Under the pieces are notes generated by a model. It saw only the letters and a program-made list of their open reading frames with translations, had not been told where the DNA came from and searched no databases. Position numbers and translations under genes: made by a program. Positions 43,582 through 50,781 of a stretch of 50,781 nucleotides of DNA are shown here, one piece after another. Position 1 is the first letter of the stretch, and every line of letters begins with the position of its first letter. This DNA comes from Chitinophagales bacterium 65-1 (lineage in GTDB: Bacteria; Bacteroidota; Bacteroidia; Chitinophagales; Chitinophagaceae), in assembly GCA_002050465.1 (NCBI GenBank), contig MWYX01000052.1:1-50781 (forward strand), written 5' to 3'.

Positions 43582-44877
43582 TTATGTTATTTGCAAATTG
43601 GCATTTACCTTTTGGAGATGCTCATAGAAATCAGGGTAAGATTTATTAACTGCTTCAGCATTATGAATTATTGTTTTATCATTAGCTTTTAAAGCAGCAA
43701 CTGCACATGCCATTGCAATACGATGATCATGATGAGAATGAGCCTCAGCACCCTTTAATTTTCCATAGCCTGCAATTGTCATTTCATCCCTGTTCACTTC
43801 AATCTCTACACCCATTTTTTTAAATTCTTCCTGTAAGGTGGCAGAACGATTGCTTTCCTTATGAGTTAATCTGGTAACACCTTTAATGGTGGTTGTTCCT
43901 TTGCAATAAGCAGCAAGAGCCACTAAAGGAGGAAAAAGATCAGGGCAATCCGTTGCATCAAACTGAAATGACGTAAGTGCTGCAGGAGAAATTGAAATTT
44001 TATTATTATCAACAGAAACTTTTGCACCTGCCATTTTTAAAGCAGAAAGTATTGATTTATCGGCCTGTGAAGAATTTATATCTAAACCATTTAGAGTAAT
44101 ATCACCGGCAATTGCTGCTGCTACTAATAAAAAAGCTGAGCTGCTCCAGTCACCTTCAACAGTATAGTTTACAGTTTGTAGTTTGCGGTTTGTGGTTGGA
44201 TTGAAATGAAATTCCTGATAATTATTATTTTCAACATTATATCCAAAATGTTTCATCACCTGTAAAGTAAGAGCGATATAAGGTTTGCTTTTAAGATCAT
44301 TCACTCTTATAGTAACAGGTTTAGTGCATGCTTTGCTATAAGCCATTATTAATCCGGTTAAAAACTGGGAACTCAAAGAGCCATCGATAGTGATATCAGC
44401 AGGCTGTAAAGGTCCTTTTATTTTTAAAGGAAGTTTACCATTGTTTGATTGAATTTGAACATTTAATAAAGGGAATATTTCATCAAAGAAATCCATTGGC
44501 CGCTGCAACAGGCTTCCGCTTCCATTCAGAATAATTTCCTGTGAACTTAATGCAGCAATTGGAGCAAACATTCTTAAGCCTAATCCGCTTTCACCACAAT
44601 TAATGGCCTCCCCCCGACCCCCTCCGGTGGAGGGGGAGCCAGGAGCAAAATCCCTACTTGTAATCAGAAATCTATTATTATTCAGAGACGTAACGGTTGC
44701 TCCCAACTTTTGAATAACATCTAAAGCTGCAAGATCATCATTGCTTTTGCCGGGATTACTGATAATGGTACCTCCTTCTTTTAATAATGCTGCCGCACAT
44801 GCACGTTGCATCGAACTTTTAGAAGCCGGCGCATGAATTGTACCCGAAATGGTAGATGGATAAATAGTAACTATCAT
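43582..44877 (-). CDS. aroA: 3-phosphoshikimate 1-carboxyvinyltransferase (EPSP synthase)
   Basis: The 431 residues contain APASKSSMQRACAAALL (phosphate-binding), SGLGLRMFAPIAAL, GSLSSQFLTGLIMA, VEGDWSSSAFLLVA, the Asp of FDATDCPDLFPPLVAL and HDHRIAMACAVAAL. It joins shikimate-3-phosphate with phosphoenolpyruvate. Two unusual insertions are visible: FAPGSPSTGGGRGEA (encoded by a GC-rich palindrome at 44608-44643) and NPTTNRKLQTVNY (encoded by a heptad-unit half-element at 44168-44207). The ATG overlaps the aroB TGA (ATGA). It is in the aromatic operon. Confidence 0.96.
   Translation of the reverse strand: MIVTIYPSTISGTIHAPASKSSMQRACAAALLKEGGTIISNPGKSNDDLAALDVIQKLGATVTSLNNNRFLITSRDFAPGSPSTGGGRGEAINCGESGLGLRMFAPIAALSSQEIILNGSGSLLQRPMDFFDEIFPLLNVQIQSNNGKLPLKIKGPLQPADITIDGSLSSQFLTGLIMAYSKACTKPVTIRVNDLKSKPYIALTLQVMKHFGYNVENNNYQEFHFNPTTNRKLQTVNYTVEGDWSSSAFLLVAAAIAGDITLNGLDINSSQADKSILSALKMAGAKVSVDNNKISISPAALTSFQFDATDCPDLFPPLVALAAYCKGTTTIKGVTRLTHKESNRSATLQEEFKKMGVEIEVNRDEMTIAGYGKLKGAEAHSHHDHRIAMACAVAALKANDKTIIHNAEAVNKSYPDFYEHLQKVNANLQIT
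44168..44207 (-). repeat. Heptad-unit half-element inside aroA
   Basis: On the minus strand the units run AACCACA, AACCGCA, AACTACA, AACTGTA, AACTATA. They translate in frame as the NPTTNRKLQTVNY segment of AroA just before the conserved VEGDW motif. Confidence 0.6.
44608..44643 (-). repeat. GC-rich palindrome inserted in aroA
   Basis: CCCCCTCCGGTGGAGGGGG (44622-44640) is a near-perfect palindrome, much more GC-rich than the gene, and encodes GSPSTGGGRGEA in frame. It is related to the CCCCTAAAGGGG family at other operon junctions. Confidence 0.7.
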
Positions 44878-45941
44878 ACCCCTAAATCCCCTAAAGGGGA
44901 CTTTGCAAATTTTTTTCTAACCTGATTAAATAATTCTTTAAGCTGATGCAAACGAATTTGTTTTACAATTCCTTCTCCTATTTTATTAAGCAGAACAAAA
45001 TTCATTGTATCCCCTGCTTTCTTTTTATCCATTAATAAAACTTTCCAAACCTTTTCTTTATCAAATTTTAAGTAGACGGGTAGCTTATACTTTTTAAGAA
45101 GATCGATGACCCTTTTACCGTCTGTTGCAGAAAAATCATTTATTGTTTCGGAAATTTTACATGCTGCTGCCATTCCAATGCTTATCGCACTTCCATGAGG
45201 TAGTTTATAAATATTCTCAATTGCATGCCCGAGTGTATGCCCGAAATTGAGAAGCTTTCTTTCTCCTGTTTCAAATTCATCTCCTGAAACAACATTATAT
45301 TTTATATCTGCATTTCTTTTTATCAGTTCAGCAACTTTTGCAGGCGAATTCTGAAATTCTTCTATAGAATTATTGGCTAATAATTCAAACATTGCTGCGT
45401 CTTTTATACAGGCGTGTTTTATTATCTCAGCAAAACCATTTATCCATTCTTCTTTTGGCAACGTTTTTAAAAAAGAATAATCATACAATAAAAATTCAGG
45501 GTGCCGGATAGTACCTATTAGATTTTTATACACCCCTACATCCACCCCATTCTTTCCTCCAATGGCTGCATCAACCATGGCTAAAATCGTGGTAGGCAAA
45601 AAAGCAAACTTAATTCCTCTCATATAAACCGAAGCCGTATACCCAGCTATATCAGTAATGACTCCTCCACCAATGCCAATAATAAAAGTTTCCCTATCTG
45701 CCTGTAATTTTATTAATTCACTGATAACATGGTCAACAGTTGATTGTTGTTTATTTTTTTCTCCCGGCTTTATTGCAATTACTTTCCAGCCTTTAAAGGT
45801 TTCTTTATAGATTGACGCAATGTTATCATCAGTTATAATTATTGCATTCTCTTGTGAAACTAACTTTTCCAACAAAGAAAAATCAGCGTCAAAATAACAG
45901 TCAACTGCTTTGGAAGAAAACTTATATTGTTTTTTACCCAT
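44874..45941 (-). CDS. aroB: 3-dehydroquinate synthase
   Basis: The 355 residues follow the AroB/glycerol-dehydrogenase-like fold: GEKNKQQSTV, FIIGIGGGVITDIAGYTASVY (in part GGGVITDIAGY, the NAD-binding glycines), LAMVDAAIGGKNGVDVG, KNLIGTIRHP, NGFAEIIKHACI and LNFGHTLGHAIE (metal-binding His). It converts DAHP to 3-dehydroquinate. The last ten residues, AKSPLGDLGV, come from a palindromic repeat. Its ATG overlaps the TAA of the DAHP synthase gene by one base. Confidence 0.96.
   Translation of the reverse strand: MGKKQYKFSSKAVDCYFDADFSLLEKLVSQENAIIITDDNIASIYKETFKGWKVIAIKPGEKNKQQSTVDHVISELIKLQADRETFIIGIGGGVITDIAGYTASVYMRGIKFAFLPTTILAMVDAAIGGKNGVDVGVYKNLIGTIRHPEFLLYDYSFLKTLPKEEWINGFAEIIKHACIKDAAMFELLANNSIEEFQNSPAKVAELIKRNADIKYNVVSGDEFETGERKLLNFGHTLGHAIENIYKLPHGSAISIGMAAACKISETINDFSATDGKRVIDLLKKYKLPVYLKFDKEKVWKVLLMDKKKAGDTMNFVLLNKIGEGIVKQIRLHQLKELFNQVRKKFAKSPLGDLGV
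44879..44904. repeat. CCCCTAAAGGGG repeat at the aroB/aroA junction
   Basis: CCCCTAAATCCCCTAAAGGG, followed by GACTTT, encodes the C-terminal AroB residues KSPLGDLGV. It begins two bases upstream of the aroA ATG, so initiation of aroA lies directly beside the hairpin. Confidence 0.75.
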
Positions 45942-47029
45942 TAATCATTCATTATTTTGTTCTGGTGATTTATACTCTCAAGATGAACTGCATCAAAATA
46001 TTTAGTTATAAACTCCTTGCTTAATCCTAAATGCTCTCCTTTTTTAAATGCTCTCTCCAGAATATCATTCCAACGATTGGTTTGAAGAATAGTGATATTA
46101 TTTTCCTTCTTATATTCCCCAATTTTATCTGCAATTTTCATTCGCTGACCAATCAATGTGAGTAATTCATCATCAATATGGTTTATCTGTTCTCTTAAAG
46201 TAGCCAATGCTGTTATAAATTCCTTTGCATCCGTATTTTCTGAACGCCAGATAAGCTCCTCCAGCATTTCTGCTAAACGTTCCGGAGTTATTTGTTGCTT
46301 TGAATCGCTCAAGGCATTGTCAGGGTCAATATGGCTTTCTATCATTAATCCGTCAAAATCAAGATCAATACTTTTTTGTGCAATTCCCTGAAGCATCGTC
46401 CTATTACCACATATATGGGAAGGATCACAAATCAATAACATATTGGGATATCGTCTTTTCATTTCGATGGGCAAATGCCACATAGGTGCATTACGATATT
46501 CCATATTACCATAATTTGAAAAACCACGGTGTATCATGCCTATTTTTTCAATACCTATCTTTTGTAAGCGTTCAATAGCGCCACACCACAGATCAAGATC
46601 CGGATGAACAGGATTTTTTATCAAGACAGGAATCTCAACACCACGTAATGCATCAGCAACAGCCTGCACACTAAAGGGATTTACTGTTGTTCTTGCACCT
46701 ATCCATAAAACATCCACATCAAAGTGCAATGCATCCTCAACATGTTTTGCCGTTGCTACTTCCACAGTAATTTGCAAGCCTGTTAATTTTTTCGCTTTAT
46801 CAAGCCATGCCAGGCCTTTTGCACCAATCCCTTCAAACATGCCCGGCTTTGTCCGTGGCTTCCATATACCTGCACGTAGCATATCTACCTTATTTGTTTT
46901 AGCAAGGCGTGTAGCGGTTTCTACCACTTGCTCTTCTGTTTCTGCACTGCATGGGCCGCTTATAATGAGCGGCCGTTTATTCCATTTTTCCTGCAATAAT
47001 TCTTTTTTTGTTTTTGCTTCTGTTTGCAT
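45941..47029 (-). CDS. Bifunctional DAHP synthase / chorismate mutase
   Basis: The 362 residues fuse a type I-beta DAHP synthase (about 15-260: PLIISGPCSAETEEQV, MLRAGIWKPRTKPG, VLWIGARTTVNPF, LICDPSHICGNR, GLMIESHIDPDNALSD) to a C-terminal AroQ-type chorismate mutase (about 275-355: LREQINHIDDELLTLIGQRM, KIGEYKKENN, with catalytic Arg/Lys/Glu positions). It performs the first step from phosphoenolpyruvate plus erythrose-4-phosphate and the branch-point rearrangement to prephenate. In related proteins the mutase domain confers feedback control by prephenate or chorismate. Confidence 0.95.
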   Translation of the reverse strand: MQTEAKTKKELLQEKWNKRPLIISGPCSAETEEQVVETATRLAKTNKVDMLRAGIWKPRTKPGMFEGIGAKGLAWLDKAKKLTGLQITVEVATAKHVEDALHFDVDVLWIGARTTVNPFSVQAVADALRGVEIPVLIKNPVHPDLDLWCGAIERLQKIGIEKIGMIHRGFSNYGNMEYRNAPMWHLPIEMKRRYPNMLLICDPSHICGNRTMLQGIAQKSIDLDFDGLMIESHIDPDNALSDSKQQITPERLAEMLEELIWRSENTDAKEFITALATLREQINHIDDELLTLIGQRMKIADKIGEYKKENNITILQTNRWNDILERAFKKGEHLGLSKEFITKYFDAVHLESINHQNKIMND

Positions 47030-47064
47030 TATTAAATTATTTTTTTGTTATCAGCATTTGCTTT

Positions 47065-47541
47065 TCATGTCATCATCGTTGTGTCACTCACTTCAACTTT
47101 TAGTTCTTTATTCATCCAATCCTCAAAACTCATTTCAAATTTTATTTCGCCTTTTCCATGTACACCCACTTCTTTCCACCCATTCATCCTGTAAAATGTT
47201 TCTGCCTTGGAGTTTGGCGAAGTTCCAAGCCAGATTTTTTCATTTGTCTTACAAAAATACCAGTCGAGCATTTCTTTGTGTAAACGCTTTCCAATTCCTT
47301 TGGCTTCATACTCAGGATGCACAAACAAGGCCCAGATATTTTTTTCTTTGATCTCCACGATAGAAAATGCTACAACTGTTCCTTCAATCTCACATACCCA
47401 GCCTTTTCCACGTACAGTTAAAAACTCTTCGCAATCTTTATCAGTTACCAGTGCAGGATCGGACAGAATATTTTCCTTTACTGAATGTCTTACAACCTGT
47501 ATTTGCGGTATATCATTCACCTTTGCTTCTCTAAAGATCAT
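47065..47541 (-). CDS. GNAT-family N-acetyltransferase
   Basis: The 158 residues have GNAT motif A, WALFVHPEYEAKGIGKRLHKEML, with the Q/RxxGxG acetyl-CoA loop (KGIGKR), and motif B, TFYRMNGWKEVG. A small N-terminal part, MIFREAKVNDIPQIQVVRHS, is standard. The substrate is unknown. It overlaps the tyrA stop by four bases, so it is a true member of the aromatic operon; a role in aromatic amino acid chemistry is not evident. Confidence 0.88.
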   Translation of the reverse strand: MIFREAKVNDIPQIQVVRHSVKENILSDPALVTDKDCEEFLTVRGKGWVCEIEGTVVAFSIVEIKEKNIWALFVHPEYEAKGIGKRLHKEMLDWYFCKTNEKIWLGTSPNSKAETFYRMNGWKEVGVHGKGEIKFEMSFEDWMNKELKVEVSDTTMMT

Positions 47542-48443
47542 TTTAAAATTCGTTTTATCTTATTCGCATTTTCCATAAGCTCGGTTAAGTATTCCAAATT
47601 TTCTTTTTCCAAACTCGATTTAAATTTTCTTAACTGGGATATATGTTCATTCAAAACATCCAGTACATTTTCCCTGTTCTGCATAAAAATTGGTGCCCAC
47701 ATAGCAGGGTTACTTTTAGCTAAACGAACTGTACTTTCAAACCCACCACCTGCCAGTTCGAAAATGGCGTCTTCTTCTCTTTCTTTTTCCAACACTGTAT
47801 TTGCCAATGCAAAAGAAGTAATGTGGGATATGTGACTCACATATGCTGCATGAGTATCATGACTTTCAGCATCCATATAAATGATATGCATTCCAAATGC
47901 TTTATAAATCTCTTCTACAATATTTAATGCAGCAAAATCGCTTTTTTCTTTTTCACAGATAACGCATGCTCTATCCTGAAAAGCATCCCTTACTGCCGCT
48001 TCCGGCCCGCTATATTCCGTACCCCACATAGGATGAGTTGCAACAAAACGCCTACGCATTGGATGATCCTTCAGCGATTGGCACAATCTATATTTAGTAG
48101 ACCCTGCATCAGCAACAATTTGCTTATCATTTACGAGGGCCATTATTTGTTCCATTACAGTGATAGTTACATCAACCGGAATGGCTACATAAATAAAGTC
48201 ACTTTGCCTTACTGCATCTTCTAAGGATAACGCCTCATCAATTATTCCCAGTTGAAGCGCCTTTTGTAAACTTGCTTCAGTTTTACTAACACCAATTATT
48301 TTTTTGGCAAAACCCTTTTCCTTCATCGCCAGGGCAAATGATCCGCTTATTAAACCAACCCCAACTATAGTTATAATAGCCTCCTCTAAATCTCCGCCAA
48401 AAGGGGAGACTTTTGAAGAATCTAAATTTTGATTTTCTTTCAT
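47538..48443 (-). CDS. tyrA: Prephenate dehydrogenase
   Basis: The 301 residues contain the NAD-binding segment ITIVGVGLISGSFALAMKEKG and IYVAIPVDVTITVM. DAGSTK, RFVATHPMWGTEYSGPEAA (prephenate site), HDTHAAYVSHISHITSFAL and ELAGGGFESTVRLAKSNP complete the family. It makes 4-hydroxyphenylpyruvate. The first 21 residues, including SSKVSPFGGDLEEA, precede the normal start of the family and are encoded by a palindromic repeat. The gene lies 38 bp after the aminotransferase stop. Confidence 0.95.
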   Translation of the reverse strand: MKENQNLDSSKVSPFGGDLEEAIITIVGVGLISGSFALAMKEKGFAKKIIGVSKTEASLQKALQLGIIDEALSLEDAVRQSDFIYVAIPVDVTITVMEQIMALVNDKQIVADAGSTKYRLCQSLKDHPMRRRFVATHPMWGTEYSGPEAAVRDAFQDRACVICEKEKSDFAALNIVEEIYKAFGMHIIYMDAESHDTHAAYVSHISHITSFALANTVLEKEREEDAIFELAGGGFESTVRLAKSNPAMWAPIFMQNRENVLDVLNEHISQLRKFKSSLEKENLEYLTELMENANKIKRILK

Positions 48444-48490
48444 TTATCTTACTGTTTTATAGCCCTCCCTTTAGGGAAGATTTAGGAGGG
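48381..48490. repeat. Two CCCCTAAAGGGG-family copies around the tyrA start
   Basis: Copy one (48381-48415, ATAGCCTCCTCTAAATC then CGCCAAAAGGGGAGAC) encodes the start of TyrA. Copy two (48460-48490, CCCTCCCTTTAGGGAAG then TTTAGGAGGG) contains the last codons and stop of the aminotransferase. They are in opposite orientation, 45 bp apart. Confidence 0.75.
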
Positions 48491-49633
48491 TTTTATTCGT
48501 TGTATAGCCTCTTCAATCTTTTCTTCAGTTGTACATAAACTCACCCTAATATATTTGTTACCCGCACTTCCAAAAATACCACCGGGTGTTACGAATACAT
48601 TGGATGCGGACAAAACCTTATCGCTTAATTGATATCCATCTTTATAGCCTGGAGGAACAGATGCCCAAACAAATAAACCTGCCTGGTTTTTATTAAAAAA
48701 ACAATTAAGCAATTCAAGTAATTTAAAAACCCTTTTCCTTCTTGCCCTATATACGTTATTTACCTGATCATGCCATTCCTGCCCCAACTCCAATGCCTTT
48801 GCAGCAGCCAGTTGTACAGGTAAAAACATACCACTATCCATATTACTTTTAAAACGTAACACACCATCTATTTTCTCCTTTGCACCAACCAGCATTCCAA
48901 TCCGCCAACCTGCCATATTATGGCTCTTACTGAGAGAATTTAATTCTATCACAACATCTTTTGCGCCATCTACGCTAAGCAAACTCATTGGATGATCATT
49001 TAAAATAAAACTATAAGGATTATCATGAATAATAAGAATGTTATGCTTTTTGGCAAAGGCAACCAATTGAACAAATAATTTCTTAGTTGGTAATTTTCCC
49101 GTGGGCATGTGAGGATAATTCACAAACATTAACCGTACATTTTTAAGATCATTCTTTTCTAATTCTTCAAAATCCGGAAACCAATTATTTTTTTCTATAA
49201 GATCATATTCTACAAGATTTGCTCCTGCAATTGTTGCGGCGCTTCTGTAAGTTGGATAACCCGGATTTGGAATTAAAACTATATCTCCTTCATTAAGAAA
49301 TGTCATGCATATATGCATAATACCCTCCTTGCTTCCAAGGAGTGGAAGTATTTCTGTATCAGCATTCAATTCAACATTATACCATTTTTTATACCATTTA
49401 AAAATTGCATTTCGCAATATAGGGCTCCCTTTATAATTCTGATAGCCATGCTGATTTGGCTTTAATGCTTCTTCCTGTAAAGTCTTAATCACATCCGGAT
49501 GAGGTGGCAGATCCGGACTTCCAATGCCCAGATTGATGACATTTCTACCAGCTTTATTCATCTCATCAATTTGCCGTAATTTCTGAGAAAAATAATATTC
49601 GCAAATTCCTTCAAGTCGTTTTGCAGTTTCCAT
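48482..49633 (-). CDS. Class I/II aminotransferase of the aromatic operon
   Basis: The 383 residues have the fold-type I aminotransferase motifs: INLGIGSPDLPPHPDVI, GSKEGIMHICMTFLNEGD, IPNPGYPTYRSA, LMFVNYPHMPTGK (Asn/Pro), HDNPYSFILND, LNSLSKSHNMAGWRIGM (PLP lysine in SLSKSHNMAGWR) and KYIRVSLCTTEEKI (carboxylate-binding Arg). It probably transaminates phenylpyruvate and hydroxyphenylpyruvate, or prephenate, with glutamate or aspartate. The gene context is the main evidence for the substrate. It starts exactly after the pheA stop (TAAATG). Its last residues, KPS, come from a repeat. Confidence 0.92.
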   Translation of the reverse strand: METAKRLEGICEYYFSQKLRQIDEMNKAGRNVINLGIGSPDLPPHPDVIKTLQEEALKPNQHGYQNYKGSPILRNAIFKWYKKWYNVELNADTEILPLLGSKEGIMHICMTFLNEGDIVLIPNPGYPTYRSAATIAGANLVEYDLIEKNNWFPDFEELEKNDLKNVRLMFVNYPHMPTGKLPTKKLFVQLVAFAKKHNILIIHDNPYSFILNDHPMSLLSVDGAKDVVIELNSLSKSHNMAGWRIGMLVGAKEKIDGVLRFKSNMDSGMFLPVQLAAAKALELGQEWHDQVNNVYRARRKRVFKLLELLNCFFNKNQAGLFVWASVPPGYKDGYQLSDKVLSASNVFVTPGGIFGSAGNKYIRVSLCTTEEKIEEAIQRIKPS

Positions 49634-50455
49634 TTACTTACCATTTTTGTAAACACCGTATACCTTCAGATCTTTAGTTAAAGGCTTAATATTTTTTATT
49701 ACCATATTGAACTGGTTTATATTTTCAAATTCCAGATCAGCATGAAAAGAATATTTCCAATCACTACCAGGGATAGGCATGGACTGCAGCTTACTTAAAT
49801 TTATATTGCCCTCAGCAATTTTGGCAAGCACCTTTACCAAACTTCCTTTTGAGTGATCAGTAGTAAAAATTAATGAAGCTTTATCAGCATTGTCAATTGG
49901 TTCTACTACATCTGTATGTTGCAAAACCAAAAACCTTGTGTAGTTATTCTTAAGTGTGTGAATGTTTGGTGCAATAATATCCAATTGAAAAAGATCAGCG
50001 GCTAAGCTGCTGGCAATAGCTGCAATATGTTTACTCCTGTGTTGATGAATGTGTTTTGCACTGAGAGCCGTATCTTCTGTCTCGATCAATTTCCAATTAT
50101 GCTTTTCAAGGAATTCTATACACTGCAGTAAAGCCATAGGATGCGAATGAACCTCACGAATATCTTCAAGCTTTATTCCCGGATTTACCAAAAGGTTTTG
50201 CTTTATTCGCAGATAAACCTCACCTATAATTTTTAAATTGGTTTTTTGTAACAAGTTATAATTAGGTAAAATACTTCCGGCAATAGAATTTTCTATTGCC
50301 ATAACTCCTCCTTCACATATCTTTTTATCGGCAGCAACTTTTACCACTTCTCTAAATGTTGAACAACAGATTACTCCCACATCTTTAAAGAATTGCTGAG
50401 CTGCCACCTGGTGAAAGCTACCTTCAAACCCCTGTATTGCTATTCTTTTATTCAT
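49634..50455 (-). CDS. pheA: Prephenate dehydratase
   Basis: ATG 50455 gives 273 residues (a TTG two codons upstream is also possible). IAIQGFEGSFHQVAAQQFF, GVMAIENSIAGSILPNYNLL and NNYTRFLVL form the dehydratase domain. KASLIFTTDHSKGSLVKVLAKI and SKLQSMPIPGSDWKYSFHADLE form the C-terminal ACT domain, with the GSLVKVL and ESRP-like (LQSMP) regions for phenylalanine feedback. It makes phenylpyruvate. It is first in the aromatic operon, 10 nt after a terminator hairpin and 60 nt after a Phe/Tyr-rich leader peptide. Confidence 0.96.
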   Translation of the reverse strand: MNKRIAIQGFEGSFHQVAAQQFFKDVGVICCSTFREVVKVAADKKICEGGVMAIENSIAGSILPNYNLLQKTNLKIIGEVYLRIKQNLLVNPGIKLEDIREVHSHPMALLQCIEFLEKHNWKLIETEDTALSAKHIHQHRSKHIAAIASSLAADLFQLDIIAPNIHTLKNNYTRFLVLQHTDVVEPIDNADKASLIFTTDHSKGSLVKVLAKIAEGNINLSKLQSMPIPGSDWKYSFHADLEFENINQFNMVIKNIKPLTKDLKVYGVYKNGK

Positions 50456-50458
50456 ATA

Positions 50459-50493
50459 CAAAAGAAAATCCCGACCTTTTTAGCCGGGATTTT
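50459..50493 (-). terminator. Attenuator terminator upstream of pheA
   Basis: On the minus strand AAAATCCCG (50493-50485) pairs with CGGGATTTT (50473-50465) across an 11-nt loop, and CTTTTG follows. The hairpin ends 10 nt before the pheA ATG. Its 5' arm can alternatively pair with AGCCCGGGAT in the leader-peptide codons (50535-50526), forming an antiterminator. Confidence 0.8.
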
Positions 50494-50514
50494 ATTTTAA
50501 TCTGTTATTTCAGT

Positions 50515-50589
50515 TTAACATAAGCATCCCGGGCTATTTATAAAATAGTAAGTAAAATAAAAACCGGTATTTGCTTTTGTAAATTTCAT
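50515..50589 (-). CDS. Aromatic leader peptide of the pheA operon
   Basis: A 24-codon frame runs from ATG 50589 to TAA 50515-50517. Codons 10-16 read FYFTYYF, six aromatic residues in seven; another Phe is at codon 3. Codons 19-22, SPGC, contain the sequence AGCCCGGGAT that is complementary to the terminator 5' arm. This is the arrangement of ribosome-mediated attenuation: shortage of Phe- or Tyr-tRNA stalls the ribosome early, frees this segment to form the antiterminator and permits transcription of pheA. The promoter lies so close that the leader mRNA starts only about 5 nt before the ATG. Confidence 0.78.
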   Translation of the reverse strand: MKFTKANTGFYFTYYFINSPGCLC

Positions 50590-50599
50590 TACCTGTATC

Positions 50600-50630
50600 C
50601 AAAAATAGTAAAGAGTTTTTAGATTACCAA
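50600..50630 (-). promoter_or_regulatory. Promoter of the pheA leader/operon
   Basis: On the minus strand TTG (50630-50628), 20 nt, TATTTTTG (50607-50600) matches the Bacteroidota -33/-7 consensus. Transcription should begin near 50593-50597, just before the leader ATG at 50589. Confidence 0.7.
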
Positions 50631-50657
50631 TCTAAATATTTAATTTCTTCTCTCAAC

Positions 50658-50684
50658 AAAAAAAGCCGCTCTATAAGAACGGCT
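50658..50684 (-). terminator. Intrinsic terminator of the gene at the window edge
   Basis: On the minus strand AGCCG (50684-50680) pairs with CGGCT (50668-50664), with inner pairing, and a run of T follows (50663-50657). It lies 27 bp after the TAA at 50711 and insulates the pheA promoter from upstream transcription. Confidence 0.8.
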
Positions 50685-50710
50685 GTAAATATCCTGGTAT
50701 CAAGATCAAT

Positions 50711-50781
50711 TTAACGAGTAGTTGTGTCAATTGGAGTAATTGCTGCACTATCAACTGAAAGATTTGTAGAATCAGTAGTTG
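50711..50781 (-). CDS. C-terminal end of a Thr/Asp/Ser-rich protein, 5' part beyond window
   Basis: Only the last 22 residues are visible, with TTDSTNLSVDSA and PIDTTTR before the TAA at 50711-50713. The Thr/Asp/Ser-rich text resembles the lipoprotein at 41369-41623, but there is too little to assign a family. An intrinsic terminator follows. Confidence 0.55.
   Translation of the reverse strand, partial: TTDSTNLSVDSAAITPIDTTTR

Follow-up and report, generated by a model that had tools for sequence, protein, structure and literature searches.

The DNA preceding pheA in the window, that is, the whole stretch of 50,781 nucleotides analyzed here, very probably encodes a ribosome-mediated transcription attenuator responding to charged Phe-tRNA and Tyr-tRNA. 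The case is built from sequence: the parts of the element, their conservation, the covariation of its 1:2 and 2:3 pairings within the family Chitinophagaceae, and its geometry all point to this reading. The mechanism class is known; as far as our literature search reaches, the dual Phe/Tyr form, its spread, the predicted near-leaderless start, and one case of codon retuning are new. The window is a single contig from an incomplete Chitinophagaceae genome (1.96 Mb, 80% complete), and the element lies on its minus strand. An earlier note on this DNA had proposed an attenuator here; segment 1, the spread far past Chitinophagaceae, and the near-leaderless leader are additions to it.

The leader region and operon of the window

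Upstream of the leader, the sequence can be read as a promoter of the Bacteroidota −33/−7 type (50600..50630, minus strand), with TTG at 50630-50628, a 20-nt spacer, and TATTTTTG at 50607-50600. Transcription is predicted to start at ~50595, 6 nt 5′ of the leader ATG at 50589; we placed +1 five bases past the final G of the box because TAnnTTTG occupies −12 to −5 in Flavobacterium psychrophilum, as described in a section of PMC9723704. The leader peptide open reading frame (ORF), MKFTKANTGFYFTYYFINSPGCLC, consists of 24 codons plus TAA (50515..50589, minus strand) and was read from the sequence together with the leaders of relatives. Phe and Tyr occupy codons 3, 10, 11, 12, 14, 15, and 16, and the run FYFTYYF at codons 10 to 16 (50542..50562, minus strand) represents the control codons. 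The promoter, the 24-codon frame, and this run, all claimed in the earlier note, were confirmed base by base.

Four RNA segments, all on the minus strand, can be assigned. Segment 1, GCAAATACCGG (50564..50574), is the protector strand, which pairs with segment 2 in the MFE fold. Segment 2, GCCCGGGATGCTTATGTTAA (50515..50534), lies in the final leader codons and forms the 5′ strand of the antiterminator, and segment 3, ATTAAAATAAAATCCCGGC (50483..50501), is the partner of either segment 2 or segment 4; both assignments draw on cognate pairing and covariation. The earlier note had described the leader end as complementary to the 5′ arm of the terminator, and the segment 2:segment 3 duplex, at −14.8 kcal/mol, bears this out. 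The intrinsic terminator 3:4 (50465..50493) consists of AAAATCCCGGCT-AAAAA-GGTCGGGATTTT, with 12 pairs, followed by CTTTTGTATA. A terminator scan of the window region found three terminator-like sites, the one between the leader and pheA among them, versus 0.3 in shuffles. The terminator described in the earlier note is present at 50493-50465, 9 nt before the pheA ATG (50455). We took this ATG as the pheA start; the ORF listing starts from TTG at 50461. Naked RNA folds into 1:2 plus 3:4 (MFE; z = −2.8), and 4/200 shuffles fold equally well. A transcript end is predicted near 50459-50465.

The first structural gene, pheA (49634..50455), encodes prephenate dehydratase, with a PF00800 match above the cutoff (3.3e-56) and matches to the NCBIfam prephenate dehydratase models under their cutoffs. 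It is followed, also on the minus strand, by an aminotransferase gene (48482-49633; the best models, for LL-diaminopimelate aminotransferase, match below the cutoff), and then, from profile matches and the ORF list, by tyrA (prephenate dehydrogenase; 47538-48443), a GNAT gene (47065-47541), a DAHP synthase-chorismate mutase fusion (45941-47029), aroB (44874-45941), and aroA (43582-44877). This gene order was also compared with that of relatives. All of the aromatic genes that the earlier note had listed are supported by profile matches, with the GNAT gene in addition; judging by gene spacing, pheA to aroA (43582..50455) would form a single transcript. The GNAT acetyltransferase gene overlaps tyrA, and a tblastn search of the DNA stretches taken from relatives gave no match for this gene.

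Among 294 family genomes, 204 have a pheA match and 90, some of them incomplete, do not. A tyrA search in 60 family genomes (59 lacking a pheA match, plus G016) returned a match in 4. Together, these counts suggest frequent loss of the aromatic operon in the family.

Conservation and pairing in Chitinophagaceae

The leader was sought as an ATG-started ORF of 10 to 45 codons, with ≥6 of 12 residues being F, Y, or W and a terminator within 140 nt. We inspected the upstream DNA at 90 of the 204 family pheA loci, namely, the 30 best (window included) and 60 lower in the list. A leader with a terminator precedes pheA at 30/30 and 58/60 of these, respectively, or 88/90 family loci; of the two exceptions, L112 has no terminator under our criteria and L134 begins its leader with GTG. 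Named records gave 77 loci, 75 with upstream DNA, of which 69 pass. Of the six that fail, L066 lacks a leader, L096 has a GTG start, and L100 to L102 have a leader but no terminator under our criteria; the sixth, L107, is titled Fredinandcohnia quinoae, a member of another phylum that we take to be Bacillota, and was counted as a miss. A further 22 family loci yielded 19 passes. These locus sets partly overlap, as some genomes entered by two routes. Before counting, we dropped L099 and L105, whose upstream DNA was too short, and G431, a 49-residue partial match.

Dinucleotide shuffles produced a leader with a terminator in 0/2,890 cases (ORF alone, 86/2,890), and the reverse strand did so in 1/289 (ORF alone, 11). 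The earlier note had named a lack of conservation of the leader frame or its aromatic codons in relatives as grounds for rejecting the attenuator; 88/90 family loci versus 0/2,890 shuffles indicate that both are conserved. Examples are the leaders of Ginsengibacter hankyongi (MNSTKAYTFFYFSYYFRNSPGGFC), Niastella yeongjuensis (MNITKAYRFFYFYFSFYFRNRPGMLLLTTK), and Terrimonas ferruginea (MIKTNTFFGFYFSFFYFRKRAGNALLK). The leader stop lies about 60 to 235 nt from pheA in relatives, with the terminator in between. In 38 of the 103 passing loci among L001 to L107, the distance from the leader stop to the pheA match is 155 to 235 nt; even at such loci (e.g., L005, L018, L047, and L061), the stem and T-run remain near the leader.

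Three loci titled Ignavibacteria, Ignavibacteriales, or Ignavibacteriaceae (L088, L097, and L103) have aromatic leaders and a pheA 60 to 66% identical to that of the window; they have a different terminator (ACCCGGTC...). Either these are mislabeled bins or the operon was transferred.

For pairing tests, we relaxed the rule to admit other start codons and shorter stems; 244 loci passed, and 170 leaders remained after removal of near duplicates, 115 of them in the family. In an alignment-free duplex test, strands were paired within a genome (cognate) and against all other genomes. Family 2:3 duplexes average −19.88 kcal/mol when cognate versus −16.80 when noncognate and are stronger than expected in 106/115 leaders (0/5,000 permutations); the corresponding values for 1:2 are −16.76 versus −13.50 kcal/mol and 95/114 (0/5,000 permutations). 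Control differences were 0.3 kcal/mol for reversed segment 3 and 0.5 kcal/mol for pre-leader DNA. Permutations reached the same strength in 186 and 123 of 5,000 cases, respectively, so a small composition effect is present. In other families, 2:3 is stronger than expected in 41/55 leaders (0/5,000 permutations). The 1:2 pairing is not supported there, with 18/41 when the segments do not overlap (75/5,000 permutations); the figure is 32/55 if overlap is permitted in short leaders. The 3:4 duplex figure, 115/115, is circular and lends no support, because the loci were chosen for having a stem.

Column-wise tests were run on alignment A1, whose structure was drawn from the same sequences that were tested; the pairing tests are not fully corrected for relatedness. 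With the 2:3 structure, 85% of cells are paired, versus 31 to 51% when it is slid. Nineteen cells changed on both sides, versus 5.9 in shuffles (0/500 as high), the covariation score is 0.128 versus 0.064 (0/500 as high), and both-side changes occur at 7/16 pairs, versus 3.7 in shuffles (5/500 as high). Further pair types in 2:3 show no excess (11 versus 11.1 in shuffles). RNAalifold on A1 recovered no more than a CCGG/CCGG stem of 4 pairs that shows no covariation; the reason is that the segments have a common core and that MAFFT placed segment 3 one position off in some rows. From these sequence comparisons, we conclude that antiterminator 2:3, which is mutually exclusive with 3:4, is backed by covariation and that protector stem 1:2 is supported in the family, not in other families.

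The two halves of the leader appear to be under different constraints. At least two Phe and at least two Tyr codons are present in 115/115 nonredundant family leaders and in 54/55 elsewhere. Leaders had entered this set on their aromatic content (≥6 of 12 residues aromatic), with no requirement that both amino acids be present. All four codons are in use (TTT 482, TTC 179, TAT 221, and TAC 193). In the 115 family leaders, the segment 2 core, CCGGG/CCGGC, occurs in frame 0 (62 leaders), frame 2 (17), and frame 1 (9), with 27 leaders lacking an exact core; its occurrence in three reading frames therefore argues for selection on RNA pairing there. Thus, the pattern is that of a leader whose first half is kept as a peptide and whose second half is kept mainly as RNA.

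Ribosome positions, rival explanations, and known systems

Stalled ribosomes were modeled by folding the RNA with the ribosome edge set at the first base of the A site plus 12 nt, which is the textbook footprint. In this model of the window, stalls at codons 10 to 16 leave segment 2 able to pair with segment 3 before segment 4 exists, and at codons 11 to 14 the antiterminator beats even the complete terminator; a ribosome at the stop codon blocks the antiterminator. Across the family, the model finds the first aromatic codon permissive in 115/115 leaders, the last in 114/115, and the stop codon blocking in 115/115, and naked transcripts form the terminator in 106/115 and 1:2 in 108/115. The geometry of classical ribosome-mediated attenuation, which the earlier note had put forward, is thus upheld by the covariation of 2:3 and by folding models in which a ribosome at the stop codon blocks 2:3 and an early stall frees it.

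An exact TAnnTTTG ends 0 to 20 nt before the leader ATG in 86/115 family leaders (2.9% in mononucleotide shuffles). The commonest spacing between the box and ATG is 7 nt (37 leaders), and TTG is also present upstream in 70. With one mismatch allowed, the box is found in 109/115 family leaders, 99 of them having it 4 to 10 nt from the ATG (ties were broken towards 7). The leader mRNA of the family is therefore predicted to be near-leaderless, with a 5′ untranslated region (UTR) of 0 to 6 nt in most members; we limit this claim to the family because outside it the box was found in only 13/55 leaders, at a median of 16 nt from the ATG. Sections of two transcriptome studies give median 5′ UTRs of 24 nt in F. 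psychrophilum (PMC9723704) and 32 nt in Bacteroides thetaiotaomicron, where about 3.7% are under 10 nt (PMC7366714).

We infer the transcription start, coupling, stalling, termination, and starvation response to run as follows. RNA polymerase would start ~6 nt 5′ of the leader AUG, so that a ribosome would load almost at the 5′ end. When Phe and Tyr are ample, the ribosome would reach the leader stop and cover segment 2, the 3:4 terminator would form, and transcription would end just before pheA. When either amino acid is short, a stall at codons 10 to 16 would cover segment 1, and the free segment 2 would take segment 3, allowing the operon to be transcribed. When translation is absent, 1:2 would form and 3:4 would terminate. 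Classical attenuation requires tight transcription-translation coupling, which to our knowledge is unproven in Bacteroidota.

The leader ribosome could instead control access to the pheA start through a hairpin, without affecting transcription. The window hairpin does end 9 nt before the pheA ATG, and Bacteroidia ribosomes, according to passages of PMC9976891, fail to recognize the Shine-Dalgarno sequence, so start accessibility could matter. We nevertheless consider such translational attenuation very unlikely, since in 38/103 loci the leader stop is 155 to 235 nt from pheA while the stem and T-run stay near the leader. It is a slighter prospect still that the peptide itself acts, by nascent-chain arrest or as a functional small protein. 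Such a peptide would be expected to leave a short ORF that is conserved and strongly biased in composition, as seen here, but the C-terminal half varies in frame and sequence (RPGMLLL, SRVVFAKA, and NRPGVFC) while most of the RNA core is retained, the aromatic content is maintained through all four codons, TTT, TTC, TAT, and TAC, and the His and Trp leaders described below carry other residues.

The least probable alternative, to which we give hardly any weight, is a constitutive low-efficiency terminator, with the leader persisting solely because it serves reinitiation or coupled translation at pheA. Korolev et al. (PMC4833913), in the text available, propose such a role for leader genes in general and report a peak of leader-gene distances at 11 to 14 bp in Bacteroidetes, which would suit this explanation; the leader stop described here, however, lies about 60 to 235 nt from pheA with a terminator between, and codon bias tracks the product of the pathway in the Phe/Tyr, His, and Trp leaders and in the Ile/Val leader of one relative. 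Transcription attenuation by a translating ribosome thus remains our strongly preferred reading.

RF01859 (Phe_leader) scores 26.6 bits at the window (E 0.092), below its gathering cutoff of 55, and has no match at gathering in L003, L005, and L019. No T-box or riboswitch was detected at the locus, as none of the 18 listed Rfam matches (window positions 49000-50781) reaches its cutoff. Rfam release 15 thus did not recognize the element at its cutoffs in the window and three relatives.

In the Escherichia coli pheA attenuator (pheL), cognate codons abound in the leader peptide, alternative stems compete, and a terminator precedes pheA. The window element has an aromatic leader, competing stems, and a terminator in the same place; unlike pheL, it has mixed Phe and Tyr codons, an operon with tyrA and shikimate genes, a predicted near-leaderless start, and a Bacteroidota promoter. 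The E. coli trp attenuator is the mechanistic archetype, with a four-segment logic in which a stall at the control codons masks segment 1. Compared by mechanism, not by sequence, the window element likewise has four segments and control codons placed so that a stall would mask segment 1, but its codons and operon differ, and it has almost no predicted 5′ UTR.

Our search of the open-access literature, outside which most subscription papers and preprints lie, found no Phe/Tyr attenuator with its segments described for Bacteroidota. A comparative survey of attenuation by Lopatovskaya et al. (2010) may include Bacteroidetes. The earlier note knew of no characterized case in this phylum; this holds for a defined Phe/Tyr attenuator, whereas attenuation as such was already suspected in print. 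A section of the 2021 transcriptome study of F. psychrophilum (PMC9723704) reports “strong clues” for leader-peptide attenuation before amino acid operons and conserved structured elements before pheA and hisG, also in other Flavobacteriaceae genera, without Rfam hits. These elements share the phylum and the gene, pheA, with the window element; compared by description only, they differ in that the section describes no peptide, segments, or codon specificity. B. thetaiotaomicron small ORFs reminiscent of leader peptides are mentioned in a passage of PMC7366714. Leader-peptide attenuators outside Proteobacteria are treated in parts of PMC1262725 (Actinobacteria) and PMC2965389 (Firmicutes hisS), but these are phyla other than that of the window; the main text of PMC2965389 contains no word beginning with Bacteroid-.

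Spread, codon specificity, and other amino acid operons

Order- and class-level samples contained 103 pheA matches outside the family, of which 102 were inspected; many of these outside families contributed only one or two loci. An aromatic ORF is found at 73/102 loci in 16/27 families, and an ORF with a terminator at 56/102 loci in 15/27 families, f64 having the ORF only. In this 102-locus scan, no ORF over the threshold was found in f2, f3, f12, f29, f33, f37, f38, f41, f42, f70, and f78; f33 has subthreshold near misses, such as MKLTQTYFWFYPASKREG. Where the terminator alone is missing at outside loci, our terminator rule may be too strict. By sequence signature, the arrangement recurs across many Bacteroidia families, much more widely than in Chitinophagaceae.

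A covariance model built from the element (R1) was run on 147 family genomes and matched 98 of them, with 102 matches in all, 83 of these lying upstream of a listed pheA match at a distance of no more than 500 nt. The remaining 19 comprise 11 in genomes without a listed pheA position, one in G149 (confirmed by tblastn), those in G074, G016, and G068 and on contig C39 of G073, and three chance matches. Second R1 matches in G071 (C14), G100 (C47), and G104 (C8) were rejected as chance; they are weak and have no convincing aromatic leader.

Genomes in which the aromatic branches are incomplete or separated bear on codon specificity. G068, which is 99% complete, has no PF00800 match in a search that was positive in 14/14 control genomes, and its leader before tyrA, MTQYSKYYYWYYLNRITG, encodes six Tyr, one Trp, and no Phe. 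This Tyr-only leader, from a single genome, sharply fits branch-specific codons. In G074 (90% complete, no PF00800 match), the leader MTITKTYTRVYSYFFYYALKRGML, with five Tyr and two Phe, precedes an aminotransferase gene. In G016, pheA and tyrA lie apart, the R1 match noted above precedes tyrA, and each gene has its own leader with both amino acids: MTLFTSYYAFSFFFYREERGIV contains five Phe and three Tyr, and MQQVSNINWFYVYYFSCTADRVAFA contains three Phe and three Tyr. These leaders lean in the right direction without separating the Phe from the Tyr branch. L365 (f55) has a Tyr-rich leader, yet no tyrA was found downstream. In G059 (no PF00800 match; aminotransferase and tyrA present), the stretch ends inside the aminotransferase gene, and the leader position falls outside it.

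The genome of the window also has a His-rich leader, MKQLLHLHHHHFLPQGRLC, upstream of hisG (L306, G000:C7) and a Trp leader, MIIQTNNNSWWQSIF, upstream of trpE (L328, G000:C3). Among the 19 of 20 hisG loci examined (L311 was dropped), all 19 have a short ORF with 3 to 6 His in 8 residues, 17 of them with a terminator. For trpE, 12 of 27 rows were dropped, mostly as weak, partial, or other-family matches; 14 of the 15 loci examined have an ORF with WW, and 12 have a terminator by the rule, the trpE leader of the window genome not being among these 12. The hisG and trpE counts are without a shuffle control. By eye, promoter spacing in the His and Trp leaders of the window genome and of close relatives is similar to that of the pheA leader. 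In G073 (L352, G073:C39:49500-51400), an Ile/Val-rich short ORF, MNKFNKANIINAIMIIVIVIIIPALQGSECFM, with a terminator precedes ilvD (TIGR00110) and is a candidate branched-chain attenuator. Leader-peptide attenuation thus looks like a general habit in the genome of the window, covering Phe/Tyr, His, and Trp.

A broader proposition, which we regard as evenly balanced, is that Bacteroidia generally use leader-peptide attenuators on amino acid operons, with mRNAs that start almost at the leader AUG (0 to 6 nt, in Chitinophagaceae) and 5′-end loading in place of Shine-Dalgarno initiation, and that the aromatic operon RNA reads both Phe and Tyr tRNAs, retuning its codons upon branch loss. If true, transcription and translation would have to be tightly coupled across a whole class in which ribosomes disregard the Shine-Dalgarno sequence. 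Since attenuation works only if ribosome and polymerase move together, the leader and terminator before pheA in Chitinophagaceae and in 15/27 other sampled families are sequence evidence of coupling there, and the element would be a simple reporter for measuring it. The element would also be a compact two-amino-acid sensor in bacteria that matter in both soil and gut. Its predicted near-leaderless start raises the testable question of how ribosomes load fast without Shine-Dalgarno recognition.

Near the hisG locus of the window genome, we also observed a SAM riboswitch aptamer (RF00162, 73 bits; L306:1081-1196, minus strand).
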